In this document: one piece after another, positions 3,003 to 19,119 of the stretch | How the letters are laid out: every line of letters begins with the position of its first letter | Numbering within the stretch: the first letter of the stretch is position 1 | Origin: Nitrospirales bacterium | GTDB lineage: Bacteria > Nitrospirota > Nitrospiria > Nitrospirales > UBA8639 | DNA: 64,000 nucleotides | Reading direction: 5' to 3' | Assembly: GCA_031315865.1 (NCBI GenBank) | Contig: JALDRJ010000002.1 | Location: 558,001-622,000, forward strand | The notes under the pieces: model-generated | What the model saw: the letters and a program-made list of their open reading frames with translations, nothing else | What the model was told of the DNA's origin: nothing | The model's database searches: none | Position numbers and translations under genes: made by a program

Positions 3003-4592
3003 ATGACAGCGCGTTCTTGGAGACAGGGTTTTTTTTCTCCCCTGTCTTTATTCGCGCTGACTATCGCCTGCACGTTGGCGTTCCCCCTGTTTTACGTGGG
3101 CTATTCGGCATTCTCTGCCAAGGGGGCCGTGTGGCAACGCCTCTGGTCCACCCGCATCCCGGAATTACTGTTCAATACGGTCACCCTGGCGATTGGCGTC
3201 GGGGCCACCACACTGATTATCGGTGTGGCCCTTGCGTGGTTCGTCACGCGATATGATTTTTGGGGACGGAGGGTATGGGAATGGGCAATCGTCCTTCCGC
3301 TCGCGATTCCCTCCTACGTCTTAGCCTATATCTATACCTATTTATTAGAAACCGGAGGATTTATCGAACAGGGCTGGCAGTGGATGATGGGGGCAGAGGC
3401 GCGCATTTTCTCCCCGTATAGTTTTGGAGGGGCCTGGCTCGTCATGACCTTAAATACATTTCCATATATTTACCTGCTCGCGCGAGCTGCGCTACAAAAT
3501 GTCAATCTTTCGTTCGAAGAAGCCGCACAGGCCTTGGGAGCCACCAGATGGCAAACGTTGACTCGGGTCTCACTCCCCCTCATTCGTCCATCGTTAGTCG
3601 CCGGCCTTTTTCTCGTCACCCTCTACGTCGTCTCTGATTTTGGCGCAGTCTCTCTTTTGCGTTTCCAAACTTTCACCTATGCCATTTATCAGCAAATGAC
3701 GAGTCGCTATGATTATGCCGCGGCATCCATCCTGAGCCTCCTGCTTGTGGTCTTTGCTTTTCTCTTTCTCATTGCTGAACGCTGGTTTCGACAACGAAGT
3801 CGATTCTTCCAAACAGGGGGACATATTCGCATGAAATCGCCGAAGCCCTGCGGAATGCTCCCCACCCTGTTACTCACGGCATTCATGCTCATGGTGTTTG
3901 GAGCGGCGTTCGGTATTCCGGTGTTCTTGCTCATTCATTGGACCTGGGCCGCTTGGAATGTTGGTGAGATGGGAAGCGGCTTCCTGTCGTACATCTGGAA
4001 CAGCGCCATGCTTTCAGGTACCGCCGCCAGCATCGCCATCGTAGTTGGAACACCACTGGCTTTCCTGGCAAGTCGCTACCCGACGCGATTCAATCTCCTG
4101 TACCTTCAAGGAGCCTATACAGGTTATGTCTTGCCTGGACCGGTCGCGGCCTTAGCGTTACTCACACTCTTCACGCAAAACCTGCCGTTTTTATACGGAA
4201 CGGCGTTAGTCTTAATCCTCGCGTATCTCATCCATTTTCTCCCTGCTGGCCTACAAGCGATGGAATCGGCTATTCAGCAAGTCAACCCCAACATCGAAGA
4301 AGCCGCAAGGAGCCTCGGCCGACATGCGTTGAGTTCGTTCTGGCAGGTCACGTTTCCACTGGTCCGTGGAGGTTTTATCGTCGCCTGGATACTCATGTTT
4401 CTCCAAGCCATGAAAGAACTCCCGGCCACGCTGCTCCTGAGACCTGTGGGATTCGATACGCTCTCGGTGAGAATCTGGCTTGAAGCGAGCGAAGAGTTGT
4501 ATCAGCTCGCGGCGCCACCGGCTCTTTTAATTATTCTGATCACCCTTCCCGTCGTCTTACTCCTCACGAAGAAGAATTGGCAGACGACGTAA
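3003..4592 (+). CDS. fbpB: Ferric iron ABC transporter permease, fused double domain
   Basis: A 529-residue inner-membrane protein with about 12 hydrophobic helices. Two EAA loops are visible, EEAAQALGATRW near residue 174 and EEAARSLGRH near residue 432, each with the G four residues after the AA pair. The protein is therefore a fused tandem permease, as usual for FbpB/AfuB/SfuB. The EAA loops dock to the ATPase FbpC. The length matches the family. It follows fbpA closely, and the ATPase gene comes 111 bases later. The sequence of that gap suggests nothing but a spacer, possibly with weak promoter activity. Confidence 0.92.
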   Translation: MTARSWRQGFFSPLSLFALTIACTLAFPLFYVGYSAFSAKGAVWQRLWSTRIPELLFNTVTLAIGVGATTLIIGVALAWFVTRYDFWGRRVWEWAIVLPLAIPSYVLAYIYTYLLETGGFIEQGWQWMMGAEARIFSPYSFGGAWLVMTLNTFPYIYLLARAALQNVNLSFEEAAQALGATRWQTLTRVSLPLIRPSLVAGLFLVTLYVVSDFGAVSLLRFQTFTYAIYQQMTSRYDYAAASILSLLLVVFAFLFLIAERWFRQRSRFFQTGGHIRMKSPKPCGMLPTLLLTAFMLMVFGAAFGIPVFLLIHWTWAAWNVGEMGSGFLSYIWNSAMLSGTAASIAIVVGTPLAFLASRYPTRFNLLYLQGAYTGYVLPGPVAALALLTLFTQNLPFLYGTALVLILAYLIHFLPAGLQAMESAIQQVNPNIEEAARSLGRHALSSFWQVTFPLVRGGFIVAWILMFLQAMKELPATLLLRPVGFDTLSVRIWLEASEELYQLAAPPALLIILITLPVVLLLTKKNWQTT

Positions 4593-4703: not shown

Positions 4704-5792
4704 ATGACGACATCCCAGAAACCACCACTCAACAAACACACAAACATCCTCGACATCCGGCATGTGACGTGTCAATATCTGGCTGACCAACCAGCCGTTC
4801 AAGACATTTCTCTGGCTGCTCAGGAAGGTGAAATCATCTGCATCTTGGGCCCATCGGGATGCGGGAAAACCACCACCTTACGGGCCATCGCGGGATTTGA
4901 AAAAGTCACAGGTGGTGAGATTTATTTAGACGGGCATCTTGTTTCTTCTGCAACGACGCATGTTCCCACAGAACGGCGGCGAGTCGGCATGGTCTTTCAA
5001 GACTATGCGCTGTTCCCTCATTTGACGGTCAAAGATAATGTGGCCTTTGGATTACAGCGGTTATCAGGTGCAGAGCGACATAACTGCACCACGACGATGT
5101 TGCAGCTCGTCGGACTGATCGGATTCGAAAGTCGGTATCCACATGAACTCTCGGGAGGGCAACAACAGCGGGTCGCTCTTGCCAGAGCCCTGGCCCCCAA
5201 TCCCGTCATCTTGCTCCTGGATGAACCGTTCAGCAATTTGGACCCGGACATGACCATCAAGATGCGGAATGAACTGCATCGCGTGCTGAGACAAACCAAT
5301 ACCACCGCCGTGCTGGTCACCCACGATCACCAAGAAGCCTTTGCCATGGCCGATCGGGTCGCCGTGCTTCAAGACGGGCTTCTCGTCCAGTATGAGACTC
5401 CCGAAACAATTTACCATTTACCCGCTTGTCGATTTGTCGCGGAATTCGTCGGCAAAGCGGATTTTATTCCCGGGTTTATTCAAAACGGGATCGTGAAGAC
5501 TGAAATTGGCCAATTTCCAAATCACAGTCACTACCAAGGTGTCCCGAACGTCTTGGTCATGGTTCGCCCTGACGACATTAAGATCGCCCGCATCTCATCA
5601 GGCACTGCTCGTATCGTGAGCCGCCAATTCCGTGGTTCCCAACACCTCTACAGCATCGAGCTGGCGTCTGGACATATCGTCCATTGTGTGGAACCATCAG
5701 ATCATGCCTATACGATCGACTCCAAAGTGACATTGGAAGTTATCGCCACGCATACGGTATTATTTGAAGATACGACTGCATCAACATGCTAA
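4704..5792 (+). CDS. fbpC: Ferric iron ABC transporter ATP-binding protein
   Basis: A 362-residue ABC ATPase: Walker A GPSGCGKT at 49-56, Q-loop VFQDYALFPH, signature LSGGQQQR near 147, Walker B LLLDEP near 170, switch His in VTHDHQEA. Residues after about 245 form the TOBE-like regulatory domain found in FbpC/PotA/MalK ATPases. It couples ATP hydrolysis to Fe(III) transport by FbpAB. The start has no strong ribosome site. The stop codon is 14 bases before the next gene, whose ribosome site lies across the stop, so the His-rich protein that follows is probably co-translated. Confidence 0.93.
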   Translation: MTTSQKPPLNKHTNILDIRHVTCQYLADQPAVQDISLAAQEGEIICILGPSGCGKTTTLRAIAGFEKVTGGEIYLDGHLVSSATTHVPTERRRVGMVFQDYALFPHLTVKDNVAFGLQRLSGAERHNCTTTMLQLVGLIGFESRYPHELSGGQQQRVALARALAPNPVILLLDEPFSNLDPDMTIKMRNELHRVLRQTNTTAVLVTHDHQEAFAMADRVAVLQDGLLVQYETPETIYHLPACRFVAEFVGKADFIPGFIQNGIVKTEIGQFPNHSHYQGVPNVLVMVRPDDIKIARISSGTARIVSRQFRGSQHLYSIELASGHIVHCVEPSDHAYTIDSKVTLEVIATHTVLFEDTTASTC

Positions 5793-6600: not shown

Positions 6601-7623
6601 TCAGTTCAAAACATGATCCTGAAAATGCAACCGGCCTTTCAGCCCGGATGAAACAGACACGTTCCCTTCTGCATCCACGATCACTCCTTCGACATCAGGA
6701 AGCCGCTCGATCAAGGCCATGCCCCTTTGCGGGCCCATGACAAAGATTCCGGTATCGAGCCCATCAGCCATGACACCCTGTGACGCGATGACCGTCACGC
6801 TTTGAGTCAACCGCGCAGGATGCAGCGTCTTGGGATCAAGGATATGATGATACCGGATGCCGTCTTTCTCGAAGTAGCGTTGATAGTCTCCGGCTGTGGA
6901 CACCGCTTCATCTTCCAACTCGATCGTCGCCAAAACATGACCTTGCTCTTTGCGGGGATGTTGAATTCCAAAGACAAATTGCTGTCCGTCAGGCATACGG
7001 CCGAACGTCTTGATGTCACCTGAAATCGCCACGACTCCGGCCGTTGCGCCGGCTGCCTTCATCACTTTTTCCGCCAGATCAGCCGCATAGCCTTTACCGA
7101 TTCCTCCCACGTCGATTTGCATCCCTGGACGAACGAGGTACGCCGTTCCTGATCGAGCATTCAATGTCAGATGAGACATCTGCACAAGCGGCCGCACCGC
7201 TTGGAGTTCTTGTTGTGTCGGAATTCTGCCTTGTTCACTCACATTCCAAAGTGCTACTGCAGGACCGATGGCAATAGTGAACCCACCTTCGGTGAGTACA
7301 TCCATCGTAAACGAATGCTGAAGAAGCTCCATGGATTCGTGACTGATGGCTATAGCATGTTCACCCGCAGCCGCGTTGACGTTCGACAGTTCACTGTCTG
7401 GAATCCAGGTGCTCCACAGCTCCTCCAGACGATGAATCTCTTTCAATCCCGCATCCACAGCCCGCCGGGCGATGACGTTATCCGGTGCGACTCCGGTCAC
7501 GAACACGATTGTCCCCATCAAATATTGACTGCGTTTAACCAGCGCCGGGAACGCAAGACCAACATCCAATAGCGACACAAAAAAACACGCGAGTAAACAC
7601 TGACAGAGTTTCGTTTTACACAT
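6601..7623 (-). CDS. apbE: FAD:protein FMN transferase (ApbE)
   Basis: A 340-residue exported protein with an N-terminal hydrophobic signal (about 6-25). ApbE family hallmarks are visible: YLMGTIVFVT, a GPAVALWN segment, QIDVGGIGKGYAAD, AISGDIKTFG, VSTAGDYQRYF, HHILDPKT and the ADGLDTGIFVMG motif with the metal-binding Asp/Thr. ApbE splits FAD and attaches FMN by a phosphoester bond to Ser/Thr in [ST]GA[ST] motifs of extracytoplasmic flavoproteins. A candidate substrate is encoded 3.4 kb away: the FMN-binding protein at 10993-11679 with an SGAT motif. It lies convergent to the fbp operon and has no obvious ribosome site. Confidence 0.93.
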   Translation of the reverse strand: MCKTKLCQCLLACFFVSLLDVGLAFPALVKRSQYLMGTIVFVTGVAPDNVIARRAVDAGLKEIHRLEELWSTWIPDSELSNVNAAAGEHAIAISHESMELLQHSFTMDVLTEGGFTIAIGPAVALWNVSEQGRIPTQQELQAVRPLVQMSHLTLNARSGTAYLVRPGMQIDVGGIGKGYAADLAEKVMKAAGATAGVVAISGDIKTFGRMPDGQQFVFGIQHPRKEQGHVLATIELEDEAVSTAGDYQRYFEKDGIRYHHILDPKTLHPARLTQSVTVIASQGVMADGLDTGIFVMGPQRGMALIERLPDVEGVIVDAEGNVSVSSGLKGRLHFQDHVLN

Positions 7624-7711: not shown

Positions 7712-8332
7712 TCATCGTCGTTTAAAATACCTCACGTTTGGATAGGGATTCACGGAAAATAGCCTGGACTGTTCGCTGACAGGCTGAGGCAAGGCAATCT
7801 TCAGAGGAAGCCCGCGAAGCTCGGGGATTTTTTCCTGAAACGTTTCCCAGTCTGGCTGATCGGACTCTATGTTCAACTTCACCATTCTCTGCGTCCGAGG
7901 TGAATCGATCGCAAAATTCCACGTCCCGAGGTAATTCACACTCTCCGCATGCACGGTGAAGGTCGCATCAAGATACGATTCAGCTCTATACGGACCATCG
8001 CTGACTTGAATCCTCACAAGCCTGTAAGTGCCTGGGAGCAATCGCAAGACAAACGCGTCCTCACTCGCATCGACATACTCACGAATTTCATGATCAGTTT
8101 GAACATTCACGAAATCCAAAAACCGCACATGGGTCCAGTCCCACCGAAAATAGGGACCCGCTTGCTCGACCTTGATCACACCAAATGCCAACACCTTCCC
8201 GTCTGTGCCAGGCAGCACGTCTTCAGTTTGCGTGAATGCACAAGCCATAGAGAGGATGGCCATCGTCACGACAAGACAACCCTGAATGATGGCGGTCCAT
8301 CTGATCGTCATTCGATTCAAGTCAAGAGGCAT
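7712..8332 (-). CDS. Putative lipoprotein, function unknown
   Basis: A 206-residue protein with a hydrophobic N-terminus ending in a lipobox-like LSMAC (Cys31), so it is probably lipidated and envelope-bound. The mature part is beta-rich, with a segment LPGTYRLVRIQVSDGPY and later SVNYLGTWNF. This resembles the GTYxL...YLG pattern of carboxypeptidase-regulatory or DUF2846-like lipoproteins. I do not recognise a specific family. It lies upstream of apbE in the same direction with an 88-base gap, and the shared upstream region holds a Fur box about 150 bases from its start, so iron control is possible. Confidence 0.6.
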   Translation of the reverse strand: MPLDLNRMTIRWTAIIQGCLVVTMAILSMACAFTQTEDVLPGTDGKVLAFGVIKVEQAGPYFRWDWTHVRFLDFVNVQTDHEIREYVDASEDAFVLRLLPGTYRLVRIQVSDGPYRAESYLDATFTVHAESVNYLGTWNFAIDSPRTQRMVKLNIESDQPDWETFQEKIPELRGLPLKIALPQPVSEQSRLFSVNPYPNVRYFKRR

Positions 8333-8450: not shown

Positions 8451-8480
8451 TTGACAAAGTTCGGCTCAATTGCTTATTAA
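8451..8480 (+). promoter_or_regulatory. Sigma-70 promoter for the zinc-ribbon/porin unit
   Basis: TTGACA at 8451-8456 and TATTAA at 8475-8480 (18-bp spacer). A Fur-box-like sequence begins right at the -10, an arrangement typical of Fur-repressed promoters. Confidence 0.65.
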
Positions 8481-8501
8481 TAATGGTTATCAATATCATT
8501 A
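8480..8501 (+). promoter_or_regulatory. Fur box 1
   Basis: TAATGGTTATCAATATCATT (8481-8500) resembles the Fur consensus GATAATGATAATCATTATC and overlaps the -10/start region of the promoter at 8451-8480. It lies between divergent genes (lipoprotein at 7712 and zinc ribbon at 8572) and could act on both. Confidence 0.7.
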
Positions 8502-8571: not shown

Positions 8572-8814
8572 ATGCAATCATATGAGGACAAGTCCAATGA
8601 GGATTTATCTGAAGCCCGGTGTCAGTGCGGGCAATTAGTGGCGAAATTTTGTTCGAATGGAGTTGAGCTTAAGTGCAAACGGTGTAAACGTCTAGTCTTA
8701 ATTCCTTTCTCTTCCCTTGCCCACTCTGAAATCAGCGTCCAGCTCTGCTCTACCCCACGCACGCTCGGGCCTTCTTCAAAGGGAACACGCCAGAAACTGA
8801 TACCAACAACCTGA
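8572..8814 (+). CDS. Com-like small zinc-ribbon protein
   Basis: An 80-residue cytoplasmic protein. Residues 15-45 carry Cys17-x-Cys19-Gly and Cys35-x2-Cys38 in the pattern ARCQCGQLVAKF...ELKCKRCKRLVLIPF. This resembles the Com translational regulators of Mu-like phages and related Com-like zinc ribbons, which bind RNA or DNA. The C-terminal 30 residues look disordered. There is no strong Shine-Dalgarno site (GTAGAAAGCGAG upstream is weak). It is the first gene after Fur box 1 and precedes the porin by 71 bases. No other phage genes are nearby. A regulatory role is inference. Confidence 0.6.
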   Translation: MQSYEDKSNEDLSEARCQCGQLVAKFCSNGVELKCKRCKRLVLIPFSSLAHSEISVQLCSTPRTLGPSSKGTRQKLIPTT

Positions 8815-8885
8815 GGGCCGTCGAGTCCCTTTATTTATCTGCTGAGGACCATAGAGTCCCCTTTGCCATTAGAGAGGTGCGCTTT

Positions 8886-10325
8886 ATGAAACAGTGGGTA
8901 ACACGGGGAACTCTCGTGCCATCAGCAATCCTAATGTTCTGCTCAATTACTGCAGGCGGATTAGGAGCGGAAGAACTCACCACCAGTCAACAGGAAGCTG
9001 TCCGAAAAGAGGTCCAACGCATCCTTCAGGAGCAAGGATATTCAGACCCCTCTGGACCGCCCCCGACGGGAGCTCCAGCTTCCAAAGACAAAGTGAGGCA
9101 CTTGGATGACTTGTACAAACAATCCAGGACCGGGGACTCGGACTCAGGGTCAACGAAGGAAGGGTCTGGTGCCCTCATTTACGCCAGGCCGTTTGTGGCG
9201 TCGCCCAAGGCCATCCTCGGTGGATATATGGACTTTGAATACATCAACCGGAAGGGCTCTTCTCCAAATTTCGACCAACATCGTTTAGTGCCCTTTATCT
9301 ACGGCGATGTCAGCGACAACGTGAAATTCGCCGCGGAGATTGAGTTTGAACATGGCGGAGTCGGAGACGAACTGAAGATAGAATTTGCGGTGATCGACTA
9401 CCTCGTGAATGAACCCTTCAACCTTCGAGCCGGAATCATTCTTCTCCCCGTCGGGAAATTCAATCTGTTGCATGATTCTCCACTACGCGACCTGACCGAT
9501 CGTCCGTTGGTCGACCAACGAATTATTCCCACCACCCTTCACCAACCGGGAGCGGGAATCTATGGCACCTTTTATCCAACCAGCCTCTCACAGATCAACT
9601 ATGAAATTTATGTCACCTCCGGCTTTACTGGCGCATTCGGCGGAGACGGCAACCCCAACTATGCCGCTGGAGGTTCAGGGACATCTACCATTACACAAAC
9701 GGCGGGACTGCGAGGTGCGAGAGACAACCTGACCGAATTTGACAGTAACGCCGGAAAGGCCGTGGTCGGTCGAATCGCGATCAGCCCATTCCTCGGAGCC
9801 GAAGTCGGCCTGTCGGGTTACTATGAAATGTATGACCCTCAAAGCGACCGGGAACTCATCATCGGCGCCGTGGACTGGACGTTTCAGAGAGGGCCGTTTG
9901 AATTCATTGGAGAAAGCGCTTGGACTTATATCCAGGACAATGACAGAAACGTCATCACCAACGTCAAGATTCCTACGGGAACGGACATTACCAGCACCCT
10001 CTTTCCCACCAGAATGCAGGGCTATTATTTACAGCTCAACTATCACTTCCTTCCTTCCTTTTTAGTAAGACTGGCACCGAGGCATTTCCGGGAGGAAGTG
10101 TCCACATTTACCGCTGTCGCTCGATGGGAGGAAATCAATCTCGCGTCCAATTTATCCGGAACAGAGGCGGCGGCTAGAGGCAAAGCACAACGCGTGACGT
10201 TTGGCTTAAACTTTCGACCAACAGAAGACACCGTCTTCAAATTCGACCTTCAATACGACCCGGAAGTATTGGGGACTAGGAAACATGGCAAAGCGTTCCT
10301 AGCCTCGGCGGCTACGTATTTCTAA
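8886..10325 (+). CDS. OprP/OprO-like outer-membrane porin
   Basis: 479 residues from the ATG at 8886 (AGAGAGG eight bases upstream); an in-frame GTG at 8877 lies within that ribosome site and is rejected. It has a signal peptide ending near LGAEE, a short coiled stretch (TSQQEAVRKEVQRILQEQG, about 30-50), then a beta-barrel of alternating aromatic strands ending in a terminal Phe (ASAATYF), as required for BAM-dependent assembly. The pattern matches the Porin_O_P family. Classical members carry phosphate or polyphosphate, but behind a Fur box the likely cargo is an iron chelate or other anion; that is inference. Confidence 0.82.
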   Translation: MKQWVTRGTLVPSAILMFCSITAGGLGAEELTTSQQEAVRKEVQRILQEQGYSDPSGPPPTGAPASKDKVRHLDDLYKQSRTGDSDSGSTKEGSGALIYARPFVASPKAILGGYMDFEYINRKGSSPNFDQHRLVPFIYGDVSDNVKFAAEIEFEHGGVGDELKIEFAVIDYLVNEPFNLRAGIILLPVGKFNLLHDSPLRDLTDRPLVDQRIIPTTLHQPGAGIYGTFYPTSLSQINYEIYVTSGFTGAFGGDGNPNYAAGGSGTSTITQTAGLRGARDNLTEFDSNAGKAVVGRIAISPFLGAEVGLSGYYEMYDPQSDRELIIGAVDWTFQRGPFEFIGESAWTYIQDNDRNVITNVKIPTGTDITSTLFPTRMQGYYLQLNYHFLPSFLVRLAPRHFREEVSTFTAVARWEEINLASNLSGTEAAARGKAQRVTFGLNFRPTEDTVFKFDLQYDPEVLGTRKHGKAFLASAATYF

Positions 10326-10424: not shown

Positions 10425-10454
10425 TTGACTCTCTGAGTCGAATGTTTGTATGAT
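10425..10454 (+). promoter_or_regulatory. Sigma-70 promoter of the lipoprotein/flavoprotein operon
   Basis: TTGACT at 10425-10430 and TATGAT at 10449-10454, spacer 18 bp. Transcription would start near 10461, inside the adjacent Fur box. Confidence 0.75.
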
Positions 10455-10460
10455 CGCAAA

Positions 10461-10485
10461 TCATAATGAGAATCAACATCATTTA
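10461..10485 (+). promoter_or_regulatory. Fur box 2
   Basis: ATAATGAGAATCAACATCAT (10463-10482) closely follows the Fur consensus and covers the predicted transcription start just downstream of the -10. Repression by Fe-Fur of the three genes that follow is the simple reading. Confidence 0.78.
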
Positions 10486-10513
10486 GAATATATTTAATTA
10501 TCATTTTCATTTC

Positions 10514-10996
10514 ATGCCTCACTTTCTCTATTCCCCCTTTTGTGCTTTCATTTTAGGCCTGACATTCCTCGCCGGATGCTCTACCTTGGAAGGCCCTTCC
10601 TTGAAGACTGAGCGATATATGGCCTGCCCTCAAGACTCGGTATGGAAGGGAGCTCTCCAGGCCCTGGAACATTACCCCATCACGCTCAAAGATAGACCTC
10701 AAGGCATCATCAAGACTGACTGGCGCGTCCAACCGGTTCAAGGTCGTGCCTTTGGCCTGTTTGGTCGTGAAAACATGGGGGATAAGGAACGTGCACGGCT
10801 TACCTTTTCCATGAAGTCCCTTCAGGCTGGAGTCGTGGCTATCACGTTGACCGAACGTCGTCAACATTGGGGGTTTGTTGGCGGCGCACGGCTCTACAAA
10901 TGGTACCCGGTTGAACCGTCTCAACAAGAAATTCAGGAATTTATGAAACGATTGACTGCCGTACTTGACAAGGAGGATTGCATCATCGAATCATGA
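10514..10996 (+). CDS. Lipoprotein of unknown function, first gene of the flavoprotein operon
   Basis: A 160-residue protein with a signal sequence and lipobox LAGC (Cys22), so it is a predicted lipoprotein. The mature part (about 35-155) has an alpha/beta character with ALQALEHYPITLKDRPQGIIKTDW, reminiscent of the helix-grip fold of BamC/NlpB-like lipoproteins, but I would not name it on that basis. Its stop overlaps the start of the FMN-binding protein by four bases (ATGA), a sign of translational coupling. It is the first gene downstream of promoter 10425-10454 and Fur box 2. Confidence 0.7.
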   Translation: MPHFLYSPFCAFILGLTFLAGCSTLEGPSLKTERYMACPQDSVWKGALQALEHYPITLKDRPQGIIKTDWRVQPVQGRAFGLFGRENMGDKERARLTFSMKSLQAGVVAITLTERRQHWGFVGGARLYKWYPVEPSQQEIQEFMKRLTAVLDKEDCIIES

Positions 10997-11679
10997 AAAA
11001 TCTCTCACCTGCACTATTGCTCGTAGCCTTAACCGTCACGATTGCTGGATGGTCTTTTCCCGCTTTCGCCGAACGCGTATGGGACCAAGAATTAAACAGA
11101 TACCTCACGCCGGAAGAATTAGGTCAAGAGGATGTCTATCTTACTCCCGATGAGGCAGCAGCCCTCATGTTCCCAGACTCCACCACTATTCGAAAAGAAT
11201 TGCTGACGCTCACGCCGGAACAAAAACGCCAGATTGAAGACATTATTGGTTGGAAATTCCCTGAATCTTCGTTTGAGTGCTATGTCGGCGAAACCGACGG
11301 CGACATCGACGGATGGGCGCTTATCCAAAACACCGTCGGCAAACACAAACCCATGACCTACATGGTCGGGGTCAATCCTGATGGGGAAGCGACGAATGTT
11401 GAAGTCCTGGTGTACCGCGAATCCCGGGGAAGCGAAGTACGAACCAAACGGTTTAATTATCAATACGAGGGAAAAGACGTCTTTGATCCAATCCGCATCA
11501 ATCGGGATATCATTAATATTTCCGGCGCAACCATGTCCGTACGTTCCATGAGTGCTGGGGTCAAACGAGCCCTCGTGTTGGTGAATGAATTTTACCTGAA
11601 ACCTCAAGGACTCGGGACCGAAACCCTCGTCGCGGGGAATAAGGAAAAAGGGTTTTTTGAATCACTCTTGGGATTTTGA
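10993..11679 (+). CDS. Extracytoplasmic FMN-binding flavoprotein
   Basis: 228 residues starting at the ATG that overlaps the previous stop (ATGA). AAGGAGG lies 16 bases upstream, and the TTG at 10978 is too close to it to serve as the start. It has a signal peptide (about 1-27, cleavage after AFA), then an FMN_bind domain ending in NISGATMSVRS. The SGAT motif puts the ApbE-attached FMN on Thr180. The GVNPDGEATNVEVLVYRESRG segment matches the family's GxxxDGxIxxVxxLxHxETPG pattern, with ESRG in place of ETPG. Such proteins pass electrons in NqrC/RnfG and in envelope redox chains. Between a lipoprotein and a membrane protein under a Fur box, an electron carrier for ferric reduction is a plausible role (inference). 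Confidence 0.88.
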   Translation: MKNLSPALLLVALTVTIAGWSFPAFAERVWDQELNRYLTPEELGQEDVYLTPDEAAALMFPDSTTIRKELLTLTPEQKRQIEDIIGWKFPESSFECYVGETDGDIDGWALIQNTVGKHKPMTYMVGVNPDGEATNVEVLVYRESRGSEVRTKRFNYQYEGKDVFDPIRINRDIINISGATMSVRSMSAGVKRALVLVNEFYLKPQGLGTETLVAGNKEKGFFESLLGF

Positions 11680-11696
11680 ATGACGTGTGGCGCTGA

Positions 11697-12224
11697 ATGC
11701 GGAATTTTAATACACGGTTTCGCCTTCGCGACACCGACCGGCAGATTCGACTGGTCTACACCTGGTTTCTTCTTCTCATGTTAACCGGCTTCATCTTTAC
11801 TTTTGTCTGGGCACACAGCATGACCGATCTTACCCCTAAAGGCATTGCCCAACATTACCGCGGATCCGATGCCAACTTTGGCGAACCCATGTCCTTCGGA
11901 CAGTTGGCGGAGACCACGCATTTTCATCTTTTTACCATGCCCGTTGTGTTCTTAATCATGGTGCATGTCCTGTACCTCACCATGGCCAGTCCTTTCCTGA
12001 AAGTCGCAACGACATGGCTGTCGTTTCTTGGCGTCACCTTGGACCTGCTTTCACCCTGGTTGATCACGTACGTGTCTCCTGTCTACGTTCTTACGTTATT
12101 GGCTGGAGACATCATGATGACCCTGGCATTTTTAGTGATGTTTATCATTCCAATGAGGGAAATGTGGTTTAACAAACAACCGTTGGTGTACATAAAATCC
12201 GACGACTATCGCGAATCCAAATAA
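11697..12224 (+). CDS. Four-helix membrane protein with paired histidines, unknown family
   Basis: A 175-residue inner-membrane protein with helices at roughly 19-39, 78-97, 103-125 and 128-151 and a soluble loop of about 40 residues between helices 1 and 2. Histidines lie at 40 (end of helix 1), 53, 75, 77 and 90 (start and middle of helix 2), spacing that would suit b-type haem ligation (His77/His90, or His40 with one of them). No CxxCH motif or known domain name comes to mind. It starts 17 bases after the FMN-binding protein. I infer that it is the membrane electron donor to that flavoprotein. Confidence 0.7.
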   Translation: MRNFNTRFRLRDTDRQIRLVYTWFLLLMLTGFIFTFVWAHSMTDLTPKGIAQHYRGSDANFGEPMSFGQLAETTHFHLFTMPVVFLIMVHVLYLTMASPFLKVATTWLSFLGVTLDLLSPWLITYVSPVYVLTLLAGDIMMTLAFLVMFIIPMREMWFNKQPLVYIKSDDYRESK

Positions 12225-12544
12225 GTTCCAATTAATAAATACGATAAACCCCGCGCGGTACGACGTTGAACCATACGGAAGTTATTTGAAACGGCTATAG
12301 TCATCCATTCAAAGGCAACCAAATAAAGTAGGCCAGAGACTGTAAGTCCAGAGCCCATGAGAATCAGGAATGATCTCATGGGCTCTTTTTTTTTGGAGAT
12401 TGAGGGGCGAATCCCATCATTCGCTTCATCAAGCGGGGGACTTCCTCCTGGGTCCCCCGCCCCTCTACCTTGTCGATTGATGAGATAACTCATCACTTTT
12501 ATATTTTTTCTATCCCGATTCTAGAATCTTGGAGATCGACTCAC
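12225..12544. other. Intergenic region with strong terminator
   Basis: It holds no supported gene. A 44-base terminator lies at 12351-12394. The stretch 12240-12350 is moderately structured but matches no riboswitch class I can recognise. The last 60 bases provide GGAG at 12531-12534, the ribosome site of the di-haem gene, and an AT-rich stretch (12496-12515) that may contain its promoter. Confidence 0.5.
12351..12394 (+). terminator. Strong intrinsic terminator of the flavoprotein operon
   Basis: GAGCCCATGAGA / TCTCATGGGCTC perfect 12-bp stem followed by nine or more T. It closes the Fur-controlled lipoprotein/flavoprotein/membrane protein unit 130 bases after the last stop codon. Confidence 0.95.
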
Positions 12545-14326
12545 ATGAGCATCATCGAACAATTCCGCTCCTCACGATCACGAATAATCGTCACATGGGT
12601 CCTCGCATTAGGACTATGCGTGCCCCTTGTTGTATCCCACGCACAGGCACAAGAAATTGAAGAAGAAACCGATCCTCCAGAAATCGCCAATGGAGAGCGC
12701 CTGTTCCTGGAGACTCGCTTCGCGCAATTCTTTAAAACCTTCCTCGACAACGGTGGCGATACCAACGCACTGCTGCCTTCGGGCGATCCCTCGCTCGATA
12801 AAACCGTGAATTGGCAGAATCTCCCCGAGCAGTTTGTCGACGGCCCGTTCGCAGGTCTCTCCATGAACTGTCGAAGCTGTCATCTTGTTGATGAGATCGG
12901 TGTGGAAGCGGACGGCACCATAAACTATGGCATGCGCACCTATACGGACTTCGCCCGACGAAGCCCGATTCCTCAACGTGAAGATGGAAAAACCGTGACG
13001 GCTCGAAACTCCCCGCCTCTGGTCAACGCCGCACTCCCCAGAAGCAATTTCTTTCTTCACTTCGATGCGGAATTTCCCACGATGGTCGACCTGGTTAAGG
13101 GAACGCTGACCGGGCGCAACTATGGTTGGGTGCCGGGCGAACTCGCCGAAGCCATCGCCCACGTCGCCCGTATCATTCGGGAGGACGATGGAAAGGGCGA
13201 GCTGGCAGGGGAATTTGGATACCTCTCCTACACAACCCTTCTTACAGGCACCGATCCGAATATTCCAGGAGACTTTGTCCTGCCTGAAGAATTCCGGGTG
13301 GACGTCGTGAATGCGTCAGATCAAGAACTTTTTCAAGCCGTCGCACGACTCATCGCAGCGTATACGGAAGATCTCGTCTTCTCTCAGGATGATGACGGCA
13401 ATTTCAATCTTTCACCTTATGACGCCTTCTTACAGACGAACGGACTCCCCCAACAACCCCGGAAATGGGAATCCGACATTGCCTACAGCAAACGACTGCT
13501 TCGAAAGATTGAAAAACTGGAATATCGAGGACACCTACAGTTTATCTCGCAAAACCCGAATACCGAGGACGGGGCATTCGAATTTCACCCGACTCAAGCC
13601 TTTGTATTCGGCGAGCAAGAATTACGAGGGCTGAAAATCTTTTTCACCAGCAAGTCCCATCGCCTGCAGCCGGGCAAGTTAGCGCAAGGCGGGATCGGCA
13701 ACTGCATTGCCTGTCATGCCGCCCCGAATTTTACTGACTTTAAGTTTCATAACACGGGAATCGCACAGGCGGAATATGATGGCATTCATGGCGACGGGGC
13801 CTTCGTCCGACTTGATATCCCCAGGCTCATTCGACGGAACAGCCATCCGAACGAGTACTTACCGGCCACCGAACAGCACCCACACTCCCGAGAACCCTAC
13901 AGGGCGATCCCCACACCCGAAAATCCACAATTGACGGACTTGGGGGTCTGGAATATTTTCTTGAATCCCGATTATCCAAAATCTCAGGGGCGAATCTGGC
14001 GCACGCTGTGCGAAGAAGTATTGCGAGACCACTTCCGTCCATTTAGCTTCATTCGATTCTGCCGGCCGAATCAACTTCTTTCGACCGCCATCGCCCGATT
14101 TAAAACCCCTGGCCTTCGCGACTTGGAGCATTCAGCGCCTTATACCCATACGGGCCAGATCGACACGCTTGAAGACATGATTCGGAGCTACATCAAGAAT
14201 GCGAGTCTGACTAGAAGCGGCGACCTCAGGAATGGCGATTCGAGATTGTCACGAATCGGGTTAACCGATGAAGACATTACGCCCCTGGTTTTGTTCCTCA
14301 AATCGTTGAATGAAGACTACAGCTAA
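12545..14326 (+). CDS. Large di-haem cytochrome c peroxidase/MauG-like protein
   Basis: 593 residues from the ATG at 12545, with GGAG ten bases upstream. It has a signal peptide (about 12-36, ending AQAQ), then haem motifs CRSCH at 109-113 and CIACH at 387-391. The second is followed by APNFTDFKFHNTGI, and later FKTPGLRDLEHSAPYTHTG, both hallmarks of the bacterial di-haem peroxidase/MauG family. Classical members have about 330-380 residues; here about 270 residues separate the haem sites, so a large insertion is present. It would reduce peroxide or oxidise a partner in the periplasm; the substrate is unknown. The AraC-type gene follows after 152 bases. Confidence 0.85.
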   Translation: MSIIEQFRSSRSRIIVTWVLALGLCVPLVVSHAQAQEIEEETDPPEIANGERLFLETRFAQFFKTFLDNGGDTNALLPSGDPSLDKTVNWQNLPEQFVDGPFAGLSMNCRSCHLVDEIGVEADGTINYGMRTYTDFARRSPIPQREDGKTVTARNSPPLVNAALPRSNFFLHFDAEFPTMVDLVKGTLTGRNYGWVPGELAEAIAHVARIIREDDGKGELAGEFGYLSYTTLLTGTDPNIPGDFVLPEEFRVDVVNASDQELFQAVARLIAAYTEDLVFSQDDDGNFNLSPYDAFLQTNGLPQQPRKWESDIAYSKRLLRKIEKLEYRGHLQFISQNPNTEDGAFEFHPTQAFVFGEQELRGLKIFFTSKSHRLQPGKLAQGGIGNCIACHAAPNFTDFKFHNTGIAQAEYDGIHGDGAFVRLDIPRLIRRNSHPNEYLPATEQHPHSREPYRAIPTPENPQLTDLGVWNIFLNPDYPKSQGRIWRTLCEEVLRDHFRPFSFIRFCRPNQLLSTAIARFKTPGLRDLEHSAPYTHTGQIDTLEDMIRSYIKNASLTRSGDLRNGDSRLSRIGLTDEDITPLVLFLKSLNEDYS

Positions 14327-15072: not shown

Positions 15073-15376
15073 ATAAGAATTCACCTGACGGCCTTCTGAC
15101 GTTCCTCATCCTGATAACGAAATATCCCAAGCCCGTTCGATATAATGCGTTCCCGCGATCCTGATTTTCGACATGCCTGGACGGTAAATTACCATCCGAT
15201 CACAAATCTCCGTATTTTCTGGTTTTTCCGCATCGAATCCGGAATTTGAACATCTTTTTCCGTTCAACCAACATGGTCTATCATCGTGCATTCACCTATA
15301 TTGAAAATGATAATCATAATTCATATCAATTAAGGAGGAAGGCTTTCTCCTTTCACTCAGGAGGCGATTTCAGCAC
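15073..15376. other. Intergenic region with Fur box 3
   Basis: No gene is supported. The 3' part contains a TATATT (15297-15302) that could be a -10, then a very good Fur box, then TAAGGAGGAAGG (15330-15341) and the AGGAGG that serves the gene at 15377. The 5' part shows nothing notable. Confidence 0.5.
15305..15327 (+). promoter_or_regulatory. Fur box 3
   Basis: AATGATAATCATAATTCAT (15306-15324) is one of the best matches to the Fur consensus in the window. It lies directly after a possible -10 and 50 bases before the next start codon. Confidence 0.8.
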
Positions 15377-15745
15377 ATGCTTTTTCACATTCTCGCAAAC
15401 GCTACCCTATTCCTTGCTCTGGGAACCACGAACATGACCTGGGCTTTCCCACCAATAGACCCGGATGAAACCCTGCTGATTCATGAAGATGTGAACATCA
15501 TAGCCGGTCTGTATTTTCGAGAGTATTCACTCAAAGGCAACGGCCTCATCGACTACAAGACGGCGCGGCAAATTATTATTTCTGAGCACAGCGCCTATGG
15601 CAATACCGTCGTGTATACCAAGGAACATCCCTTGTTTTACTGGCATGACCGAAACGGCGATGGCCGGATGGAAATGTGGGTTGATCAAAAAGTTGAAGGA
15701 TGCGCCTGCGATATCGTGCCGTATGAGACCACATATCCTGAATAA
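15377..15745 (+). CDS. Small secreted protein with EF-hand-like loop, Fur-box gene
   Basis: A 122-residue protein with a short signal peptide (about 1-23) and AGGAGG 12 bases before the ATG. Residues 91-103 (DRNGDGRMEMWVD) form a calcium-loop-like sequence with Asp91, Asn93, Asp95 and Glu99. This pattern is common in EF-hand and dockerin-like repeats and in proteins annotated only as hypothetical. Two cysteines close together (Cys109, Cys111) follow. No family name is recognised. Its position behind Fur box 3 puts it in the likely iron-starvation set; a metal-binding or surface role is inference. Confidence 0.7.
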   Translation: MLFHILANATLFLALGTTNMTWAFPPIDPDETLLIHEDVNIIAGLYFREYSLKGNGLIDYKTARQIIISEHSAYGNTVVYTKEHPLFYWHDRNGDGRMEMWVDQKVEGCACDIVPYETTYPE

Positions 15746-17840: not shown

Positions 17841-18317
17841 TCAACTCTTGTCCTTGATCTGTTCACTGAGATAGTTCTCGAGACCGACTTGCTTCACGGT
17901 TTCCTGTTGGGTCTCGATCCAATCGATGTGCTCCTCCTCACTTTTAGCGATGACTTCCAATTTTTGTCGGGTCGTATAATCACCCACTGACGCACAGTGG
18001 GTAATGGCATCTCGCAGAAGGGAAAGATTTTCTATTTCCAGCTTCAAATCGACTTTCAATTGTTCCGGCACTGTCTCGCCAATACTAATCTTCCCTAATC
18101 GCTGCATATTGGGAACACCTTCAAGATACAAGATGTGTTCAATCATTTCCTCTGCATGCTTCATTTCGTCAATCGCATGTCCTTTGATGGCGTGATGAAG
18201 ACGTTCATACCCCCAGTTTTCACACATTTCGCCATGAACAAAATACTGATTAATCGCCGTCAGCTCATTGGTGAGCACTTTGTTCAAATAATCAATAACG
18301 CCTTTTTTGGCTTTCAT
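17841..18317 (-). CDS. bfr: Bacterioferritin subunit, complete ferroxidase centre
   Basis: 158 residues, the normal bacterioferritin length. All ferroxidase ligands are present by alignment with E. coli Bfr: Glu18, Glu51, His54, Glu94, Glu127, His130; Met52, the haem ligand, is also there. Bacterioferritin oxidises Fe(II) and stores it as a mineral core in a 24-subunit shell. It follows the other bfr gene by 15 bases and shares its promoter, with a terminator after it. Because the partner subunit lacks His54, this one is likely to carry most of the iron oxidation in mixed shells. The start ATG has GGGAGGGCG six to ten bases upstream. Confidence 0.95.
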   Translation of the reverse strand: MKAKKGVIDYLNKVLTNELTAINQYFVHGEMCENWGYERLHHAIKGHAIDEMKHAEEMIEHILYLEGVPNMQRLGKISIGETVPEQLKVDLKLEIENLSLLRDAITHCASVGDYTTRQKLEVIAKSEEEHIDWIETQQETVKQVGLENYLSEQIKDKS

Positions 18318-18332
18318 GATTCGCCCTCCCAG

Positions 18333-18809
18333 TTAGCCTTCCTTCTTAATTTGCTCGCTCAAATAGTTTTCGAGACCAATTTGCTTAATAGTCTCTTGTT
18401 GAGTCTCGATCCAATCGATATGCTCCTCTTCGTCCGTCACCATCTCTTCGAGCATATGACGCGTGGTGTAATCCCCGACCTTGACGCAATGCTCAATGCC
18501 TTCGGTCATGAGCTTTACCATTTCTTTTTCCTTGATAAGATCGAGTTTCAACTGTTCTGGTACCGTTTCGCCAATCGTGACCCTCCCCAATTTTTGTACA
18601 TTGGGAAAACCTTCCAGGTACAGGATGTGCCGAATGACCCGATCAGCGTCCTTCATCTCACCAAAGCTTCGCTCCCTTACCTTTTCTTCGAGTCGCTCAA
18701 ACCCCCAGTTTTCACACATCCGTGCGTGTAAAAAATACTGATTAATGACCGTGAGTTCTTCCGTCAAAATCTTGTTCAATAAATCGACGACTCCCTTTTT
18801 CCCCTTCAT
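18333..18809 (-). CDS. bfr: Bacterioferritin subunit with altered ferroxidase ligand
   Basis: 158 residues and clearly paralogous to the downstream subunit. Glu18, Glu51, Met52 (haem ligand), Glu94, Glu127 and His130 are present, but the position of His54 is Asp (GEMKDADR instead of DEMKHAEE). That residue bridges to one iron of the di-iron site, so the ferroxidase centre may be weakened or altered. Two-gene bfr pairs that form mixed shells with unequal centres are known in Pseudomonas, Neisseria and Magnetospirillum. AAAGGAGG lies seven bases before the ATG. The promoter at 18902-18930 serves both genes. Confidence 0.94.
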   Translation of the reverse strand: MKGKKGVVDLLNKILTEELTVINQYFLHARMCENWGFERLEEKVRERSFGEMKDADRVIRHILYLEGFPNVQKLGRVTIGETVPEQLKLDLIKEKEMVKLMTEGIEHCVKVGDYTTRHMLEEMVTDEEEHIDWIETQQETIKQIGLENYLSEQIKKEG

Positions 18810-19072: not shown

Positions 19073-19101
19073 TTGACAAGTTAAATATCCTATATTATGA
19101 T
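19073..19101 (+). promoter_or_regulatory. Sigma-70 promoter of the peroxiredoxin-like gene
   Basis: TTGACA at 19073-19078, spacer 17 bp, TATGAT at 19096-19101: close to consensus. The Fur box begins inside the -10. Confidence 0.8.
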
Positions 19102-19119
19102 AATGATAATTGATATCAT
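19098..19119 (+). promoter_or_regulatory. Fur box 4
   Basis: GATAATGATAATTGATATCA (19099-19118) matches GATAATGATAAT of the consensus exactly over 12 bases, with an imperfect second half. It overlaps the -10 of the promoter at 19073-19101, as expected for direct repression. Confidence 0.85.

Follow-up and report, generated by a model that had tools for sequence, protein, structure and literature searches.

A candidate Fur-controlled, flavin-based iron reductase module linked to iron uptake in Nitrospirales

Three adjacent genes of a Nitrospirales bacterium, here named p1, p2 and p3, are read with moderate confidence as encoding a Fur-regulated, flavinylated and quinol-fed periplasmic iron reductase, which would serve uptake as the redox part of an iron-uptake island. 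They lie in a window of 64,000 nucleotides, the whole stretch of DNA analysed here, taken from a genome assembly of 3.8 Mb in two contigs. A first-pass annotation had confined the unit to positions 10425-12394, i.e., a lipoprotein, an FMN-bound flavoprotein and a four-helix membrane protein. Its description of the trio is accurate, but the functional unit reaches further left and takes in the porin, the Fur box at 8479-8497, c6 and ApbE, FbpABC and Fur. The features are as follows:

1410-1931, + strand: Fur regulator (PF01475, 123 bits)
1964-2992, + strand: FbpA/FutA-type periplasmic iron-binding protein
3003-4592, + strand: FbpB-type permease
4704-5792, + strand: FbpC-type ATPase with TOBE domain
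6601-7623, - strand: ApbE FMN transferase (PF02424, 262 bits)
7712-8332, - strand: c6, lipoprotein-like, between apbE and the divergent promoter region
8479-8497, no strand assigned: Fur box between the divergent sets c6-apbE and c13-porin (15/19)
8572-8814, + strand: c13, small conserved ORF before the porin
8877-10325, + strand: outer-membrane porin (Porin_O_P), conserved neighbour upstream of the trio
10425-10454, + strand: sigma-70-type promoter, TTGACT-18-TATGAT (10/12 matches)
10462-10480, no strand assigned: Fur box before p1, CATAATGAGAATCAACATC (15/19 consensus matches)
10514-10996, + strand: p1, lipoprotein of 160 aa, lipobox LAGC
10993-11679, + strand: p2, exported FMN_bind protein with SGAT flavinylation site, 228 aa counted from ATG
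11697-12224, + strand: p3, four-helix membrane protein of 175 aa, E72/H75/H77 invariant, H90 nearly so
12350-12394, + strand: intrinsic terminator, 16-pair hairpin and U-run

The trio is organized as a compact operon, as had been proposed: p1 and p2 share an ATGA overlap, p2 and p3 are separated by 17 bases, and the terminator is strong, a 61-nt stretch folding at -28.3 kcal/mol (z -5.3) with no shuffled sequence equally good. The Fur box said to cover the promoter was recovered as well; it begins 8 bases beyond the -10 hexamer, where transcription is expected to start, and a site of this quality would arise by chance in the 188-bp gap with a probability of about 0.001. Fur-like sites with at least 15 matches occur at four separate places of the window (8479, 10462, 15303 and 19099), all of them between 8.4 and 19.2 kb, for an expectation of 0.175 per 64 kb. 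At 15297-15327, three overlapping Fur-like sites (14-16/19) lie just 5' of a 122-aa ORF (15377-15745) with no Pfam match. Overlapping sites of up to 16/19 (19093-19117) are also found upstream of two bacterioferritin-like genes (17841-18809, - strand), and bacterioferritin-related genes recur 3' of the module in relatives. Directly 3' of the trio, a MauG/di-haem peroxidase-like protein is encoded at 12470-14326, with such a gene nearby in 14 loci.

Conservation of Fur sites was then assessed per locus, counting any site of at least 14 matches that lay before p1 or in the promoter region of porin and ApbE. Under this definition, the module promoters carry a Fur site in 25 of 37 order loci, compared with 0.36 expected from shuffled sequence. 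The box at 8479-8497 is kept in many members of the order, and sites like that at 10462 also precede p1 in L036, L037 and L043-L047. A promoter Fur box conserved in relatives, as for members of a Fur regulon, is therefore found. In the same scan of 37 loci, some promoters, e.g., those of L062, L067, L069 and L070, had no Fur-like site, L064 and L068 being exceptions inside otherwise Fur-site-free families.

When the neighbour genes of about 60 loci were clustered, almost all order loci had the trio behind the porin and ApbE in divergent orientation to the latter; many of them also had Fur, FbpA, FbpB and FbpC further upstream. The linked transporter has all the components of an FbpABC/Fut iron ABC transporter, i.e., an iron-binding substrate-binding protein, a double permease and an ATPase, and the solved structures nearest to its substrate-binding protein are those of iron-binding proteins. 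Other Nitrospiria (the L091-L097 set) likewise have fur, FbpBC, porin, ApbE-FMN and p3 linked. This is illustrated by L091-L094, where fur, fbpB and fbpC lie beside p3, and by the Manganitrophus and Troglogloeales loci, where the gene order is fbpB-fbpC-fur-porin-ApbE/FMN-p3. FbpABC is replaced in L101 (identical in location to L071), where the interval from Fur to the porin holds a cupredoxin and an FTR1 iron permease instead. The transporter changes between loci while the redox pair stays. Because the Fur boxes are conserved, as is the linkage to Fur, to FbpABC or FTR1 and to the porin, the proposed Fur control and iron-uptake role of the module are strongly supported. Besides, ExbB-, ExbD- and TonB-like genes were recognized by eye between fbpC and apbE, beside the porin, in many relatives (L051-L060), and a second copy of the porin-p1 type, without p3, lies near the main module in L056 and L059 (L059:2219-3342, this copy with p2).

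The two redox genes are also inherited jointly. Among the relatives, p3 is present in 55 of 59 and p2 in 54 of 59; in the order loci that were read, p2 and p3 occur together in 40/40 and p1 in 38/40. Failure to find the trio elsewhere had been set beforehand as an argument against the proposal; instead, it recurs throughout the order. In a wider draw, the 14 near-complete order genomes without p3 all lacked p2, and a close FbpB was kept in most of them (11 full-length and one at a contig end). FeoB was considered as the compensating transporter in these genomes and rejected, being absent from every order genome searched while the control genomes gave a signal. From this co-occurrence, the joint absence and the retention of FbpB without the pair, p2 and p3 most likely work together as an optional addition to the transporter, for which the redox part is not essential. 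A collection scan, run with a narrow alignment since a mixed one was too diverse, showed that the p3 family reaches Methylomirabilota and Planctomycetota, including Brocadia. ApbE/FMN-p3 pairs are found in the planctomycetotal loci L106, L107 and L108, the latter belonging to the anammox Candidatus Brocadia.

The match of p2 to FMN_bind (PF04205) reaches 38.9 bits for a cut-off of 22, and its N-terminus has a signal-like stretch as judged by eye. The SGAT motif and the ApbE gene 3.4 kb away, both pointed out in the first-pass annotation, agree with the PF04205 and PF02424 matches. The motif corresponds to residues 177-180, and an [S/T]GA[S/T] acceptor site is present in 51 of 52 p2 homologues; ApbE is encoded twice in the genome, once by the neighbouring gene. 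In other orders of the class, the flavin protein and ApbE form one chain, PF02424 followed by PF04205, with p3 next, a fusion that ties the acceptor directly to its modifying enzyme. By the known chemistry of ApbE, FMN would be bound covalently to Thr180 of p2 (PMC8238504). Concerning p1, two further conserved cysteines accompany the lipobox, the similarity to DUF3576 is weak and below cut-off, and the single-sequence structural model was useless (pLDDT 34).

The five histidines earlier counted in p3 were confirmed at positions 40, 53, 75, 77 and 90. In the alignment, M1, F24, G56, E72, H75, H77, K102 and P120 are invariant, and Y54 and W121 nearly so. The homologues thus keep conserved histidines, the lack of which had been named as evidence against the proposal, and the invariant pair is His75-x-His77. 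Haem had been placed at His40, His77 and His90. This holds for His77 and largely for His90, which is kept in the aligned Nitrospirota and Methylomirabilota and is Arg in the Planctomycetota L107 and L108. His40 was rejected as a haem ligand because it is not conserved (0.93 in the order, replaced outside it). Using 18 sequences, AlphaFold2 predicted a confident four-helix bundle (pLDDT 89) with helices at 15-42, 67-93, 99-125 and 128-158, and a short helix at 47-55. On helix 2, H75 and H77 would point to opposite faces, and H75 and H90 would lie on roughly one face, about 22 Å apart. Such an arrangement may bind haem; two bis-His haems would need an oligomer, since each chain has too few histidines.

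The positive N-terminus of p3 suggests that both termini are inside. This topology is supported by paralogues of about 250 residues, which carry a CxxCH motif in the helix 1-2 loop and have lost His90. Attachment of c-type haem takes place in the periplasm, so this loop would be periplasmic. In the operon L086:4576-8089, one such paralogue has a cytochrome c gene on one side and a Rieske/cytochrome b pair on the other, and it may be a so far undescribed component of a bc-type complex; another, in L083, lies beside a distant p2-like protein. No relative of p3 was found in Pfam, NCBIfam or PDB sequences, none of the 18 p3 members matched the DUF4405, FezC, PepSY or MsrQ families at E up to 1, and no sequence or convincing fold match to a known cytochrome family was obtained. 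The four long helices of p3 also depart from the DUF4405 layout of six TM helices and four central histidines. Haem-copper oxidase ancestry was considered, p3 having a similar H-x-H helix and structural matches to ba3 and cbb3 enzymes (Z 5-6), and was not adopted, as the hhalign probability was below 1% and the structure scores were tied with those of unrelated helical bundles.

In the mechanism that we propose, Fe(III) or small ferric chelates would enter via the dedicated outer-membrane porin. In the inner membrane p3, perhaps a homo-oligomer, would take electrons from menaquinol through a haem probably held by His75/His77, near the outward-facing end of helix 2, and by His90 deeper in the membrane. 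Electrons would then pass to p2, carrying on Thr180 the FMN attached by the neighbouring ApbE, and p2 would reduce ferric iron in the periplasm, releasing it from its ligands. FbpA would then capture the released iron for import by FbpBC; in relatives, FTR1 would take it up together with the cupredoxin. The p1 lipoprotein probably holds the flavoprotein close to a membrane or to the porin.

Against this mechanism stand the missing family or convincing fold match of p3, the loss of His90 in the c-type paralogues and its replacement by Arg in L107 and L108, the retention of FbpB in most p2-p3-free genomes and the loci without a Fur-like promoter site. Nor is a need for Fe(II) obvious, as Fe(III) is often the form bound by FbpA-type proteins and no order genome searched has FeoB. 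Fur control would fit iron sparing equally well. Following the flavodoxin-for-ferredoxin logic, the flavoprotein and p3 would then replace iron-rich periplasmic carriers under limitation and feed another acceptor, reducing iron not being their task. Flavin-based transfer has been proposed as an advantage under iron scarcity (PMC8238504), and the MauG-like dihaem protein just 3' of the module in 14 loci is in line with this explanation. Nevertheless, we regard it as clearly unlikely, given that the module is linked to iron transporters and a porin and not to respiratory genes, and that FTR1 is present where FbpABC is missing from the locus. It is very improbable that the module reduces another substrate, such as phosphate-porin cargo, Cu, Mn or peroxide, and is merely co-regulated with iron genes: the O/P family is indeed the only Pfam match of the porin and the Mn-oxidizing Manganitrophus has the module, but Fur boxes and iron transporters are its constant partners across orders.

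A further alternative is about how p3 works and does not conflict with a role in iron reduction. Instead of being a cytochrome, p3 could be an anchor or a quinol-binding subunit, with E72/H75/H77 binding quinol or a metal and electrons going straight to FMN. The lack of a cytochrome family match, an invariant cluster limited to E-x2-H-x-H and the loss of H90 in some members are consistent with this possibility. We nevertheless find it somewhat unlikely, since the helical wheel puts H75 and H90 on roughly one face of helix 2 at about 22 Å, which resembles haem-b helices, and a paralogue with a c-type haem motif is found in a bc-type operon.

The iron-reductase reading has a precedent, as flavinylation has already been linked to iron assimilation (PMC8238504). 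The clusters described there (PepSY-like, MsrQ-like, and P19/FTR1 with FMN_bind) share with the Nitrospirota module ApbE, a covalent-FMN protein, an iron transporter and, in some members, Fur control. However, p3 belongs to none of their five membrane-partner classes, the transporter here is FbpABC or cupredoxin-FTR1, and the module also has a lipoprotein and its dedicated porin. DUF4405/FezC cytochromes are likewise conserved-histidine membrane proteins near flavinylation or iron genes, and FezC was modelled to form haem sites by homodimerization (PMC10979944); p3 falls outside this family too, as it does not match DUF4405, has four helices and carries its H-x-H pair at the outward-facing end of helix 2. 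With RnfG/NqrC, p2 has in common the FMN_bind domain and the S/TGAT site, and it matches rnfG models as well as RnfG structures weakly, whereas it scores far below the family cut-offs and the island has no other Rnf/Nqr subunits. Cyanobacterial reductive iron uptake presumably combines the Fut ABC transporter, the porin Slr1908 and a separate reduction step. By analogy, a porin and a FutA/FbpA-type ABC transporter occur in both systems, but the cyanobacterial one as described includes no flavinylated reductase or p3-like protein (for FutA, see PMC8786288).

No published description of the module was found in the literature on Nitrospira with FMN-binding or Fbp, nor in the Manganitrophus genome paper, and the literature searched contained no report of flavinylation combined with a porin and FbpABC. 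Tentatively, and just short of an even chance, p3 may represent a new class of four-helix haem protein with an E-x2-H-x-H signature that powers reductive iron uptake in Nitrospirota together with the porin, its c-haem paralogues working in bc-type quinol-oxidizing complexes. The respiratory enzymes of nitrite oxidizers, Mn oxidizers and anammox relatives create a high demand for iron. If the proposal is true, a conserved redox module under Fur control and equipped with a porin of its own would account for the iron supply in the order genomes searched, all of them FeoB-free, and an undescribed membrane partner, of a family as yet unnamed, would be added to the electron routes that reach extracytoplasmic flavinylated proteins.
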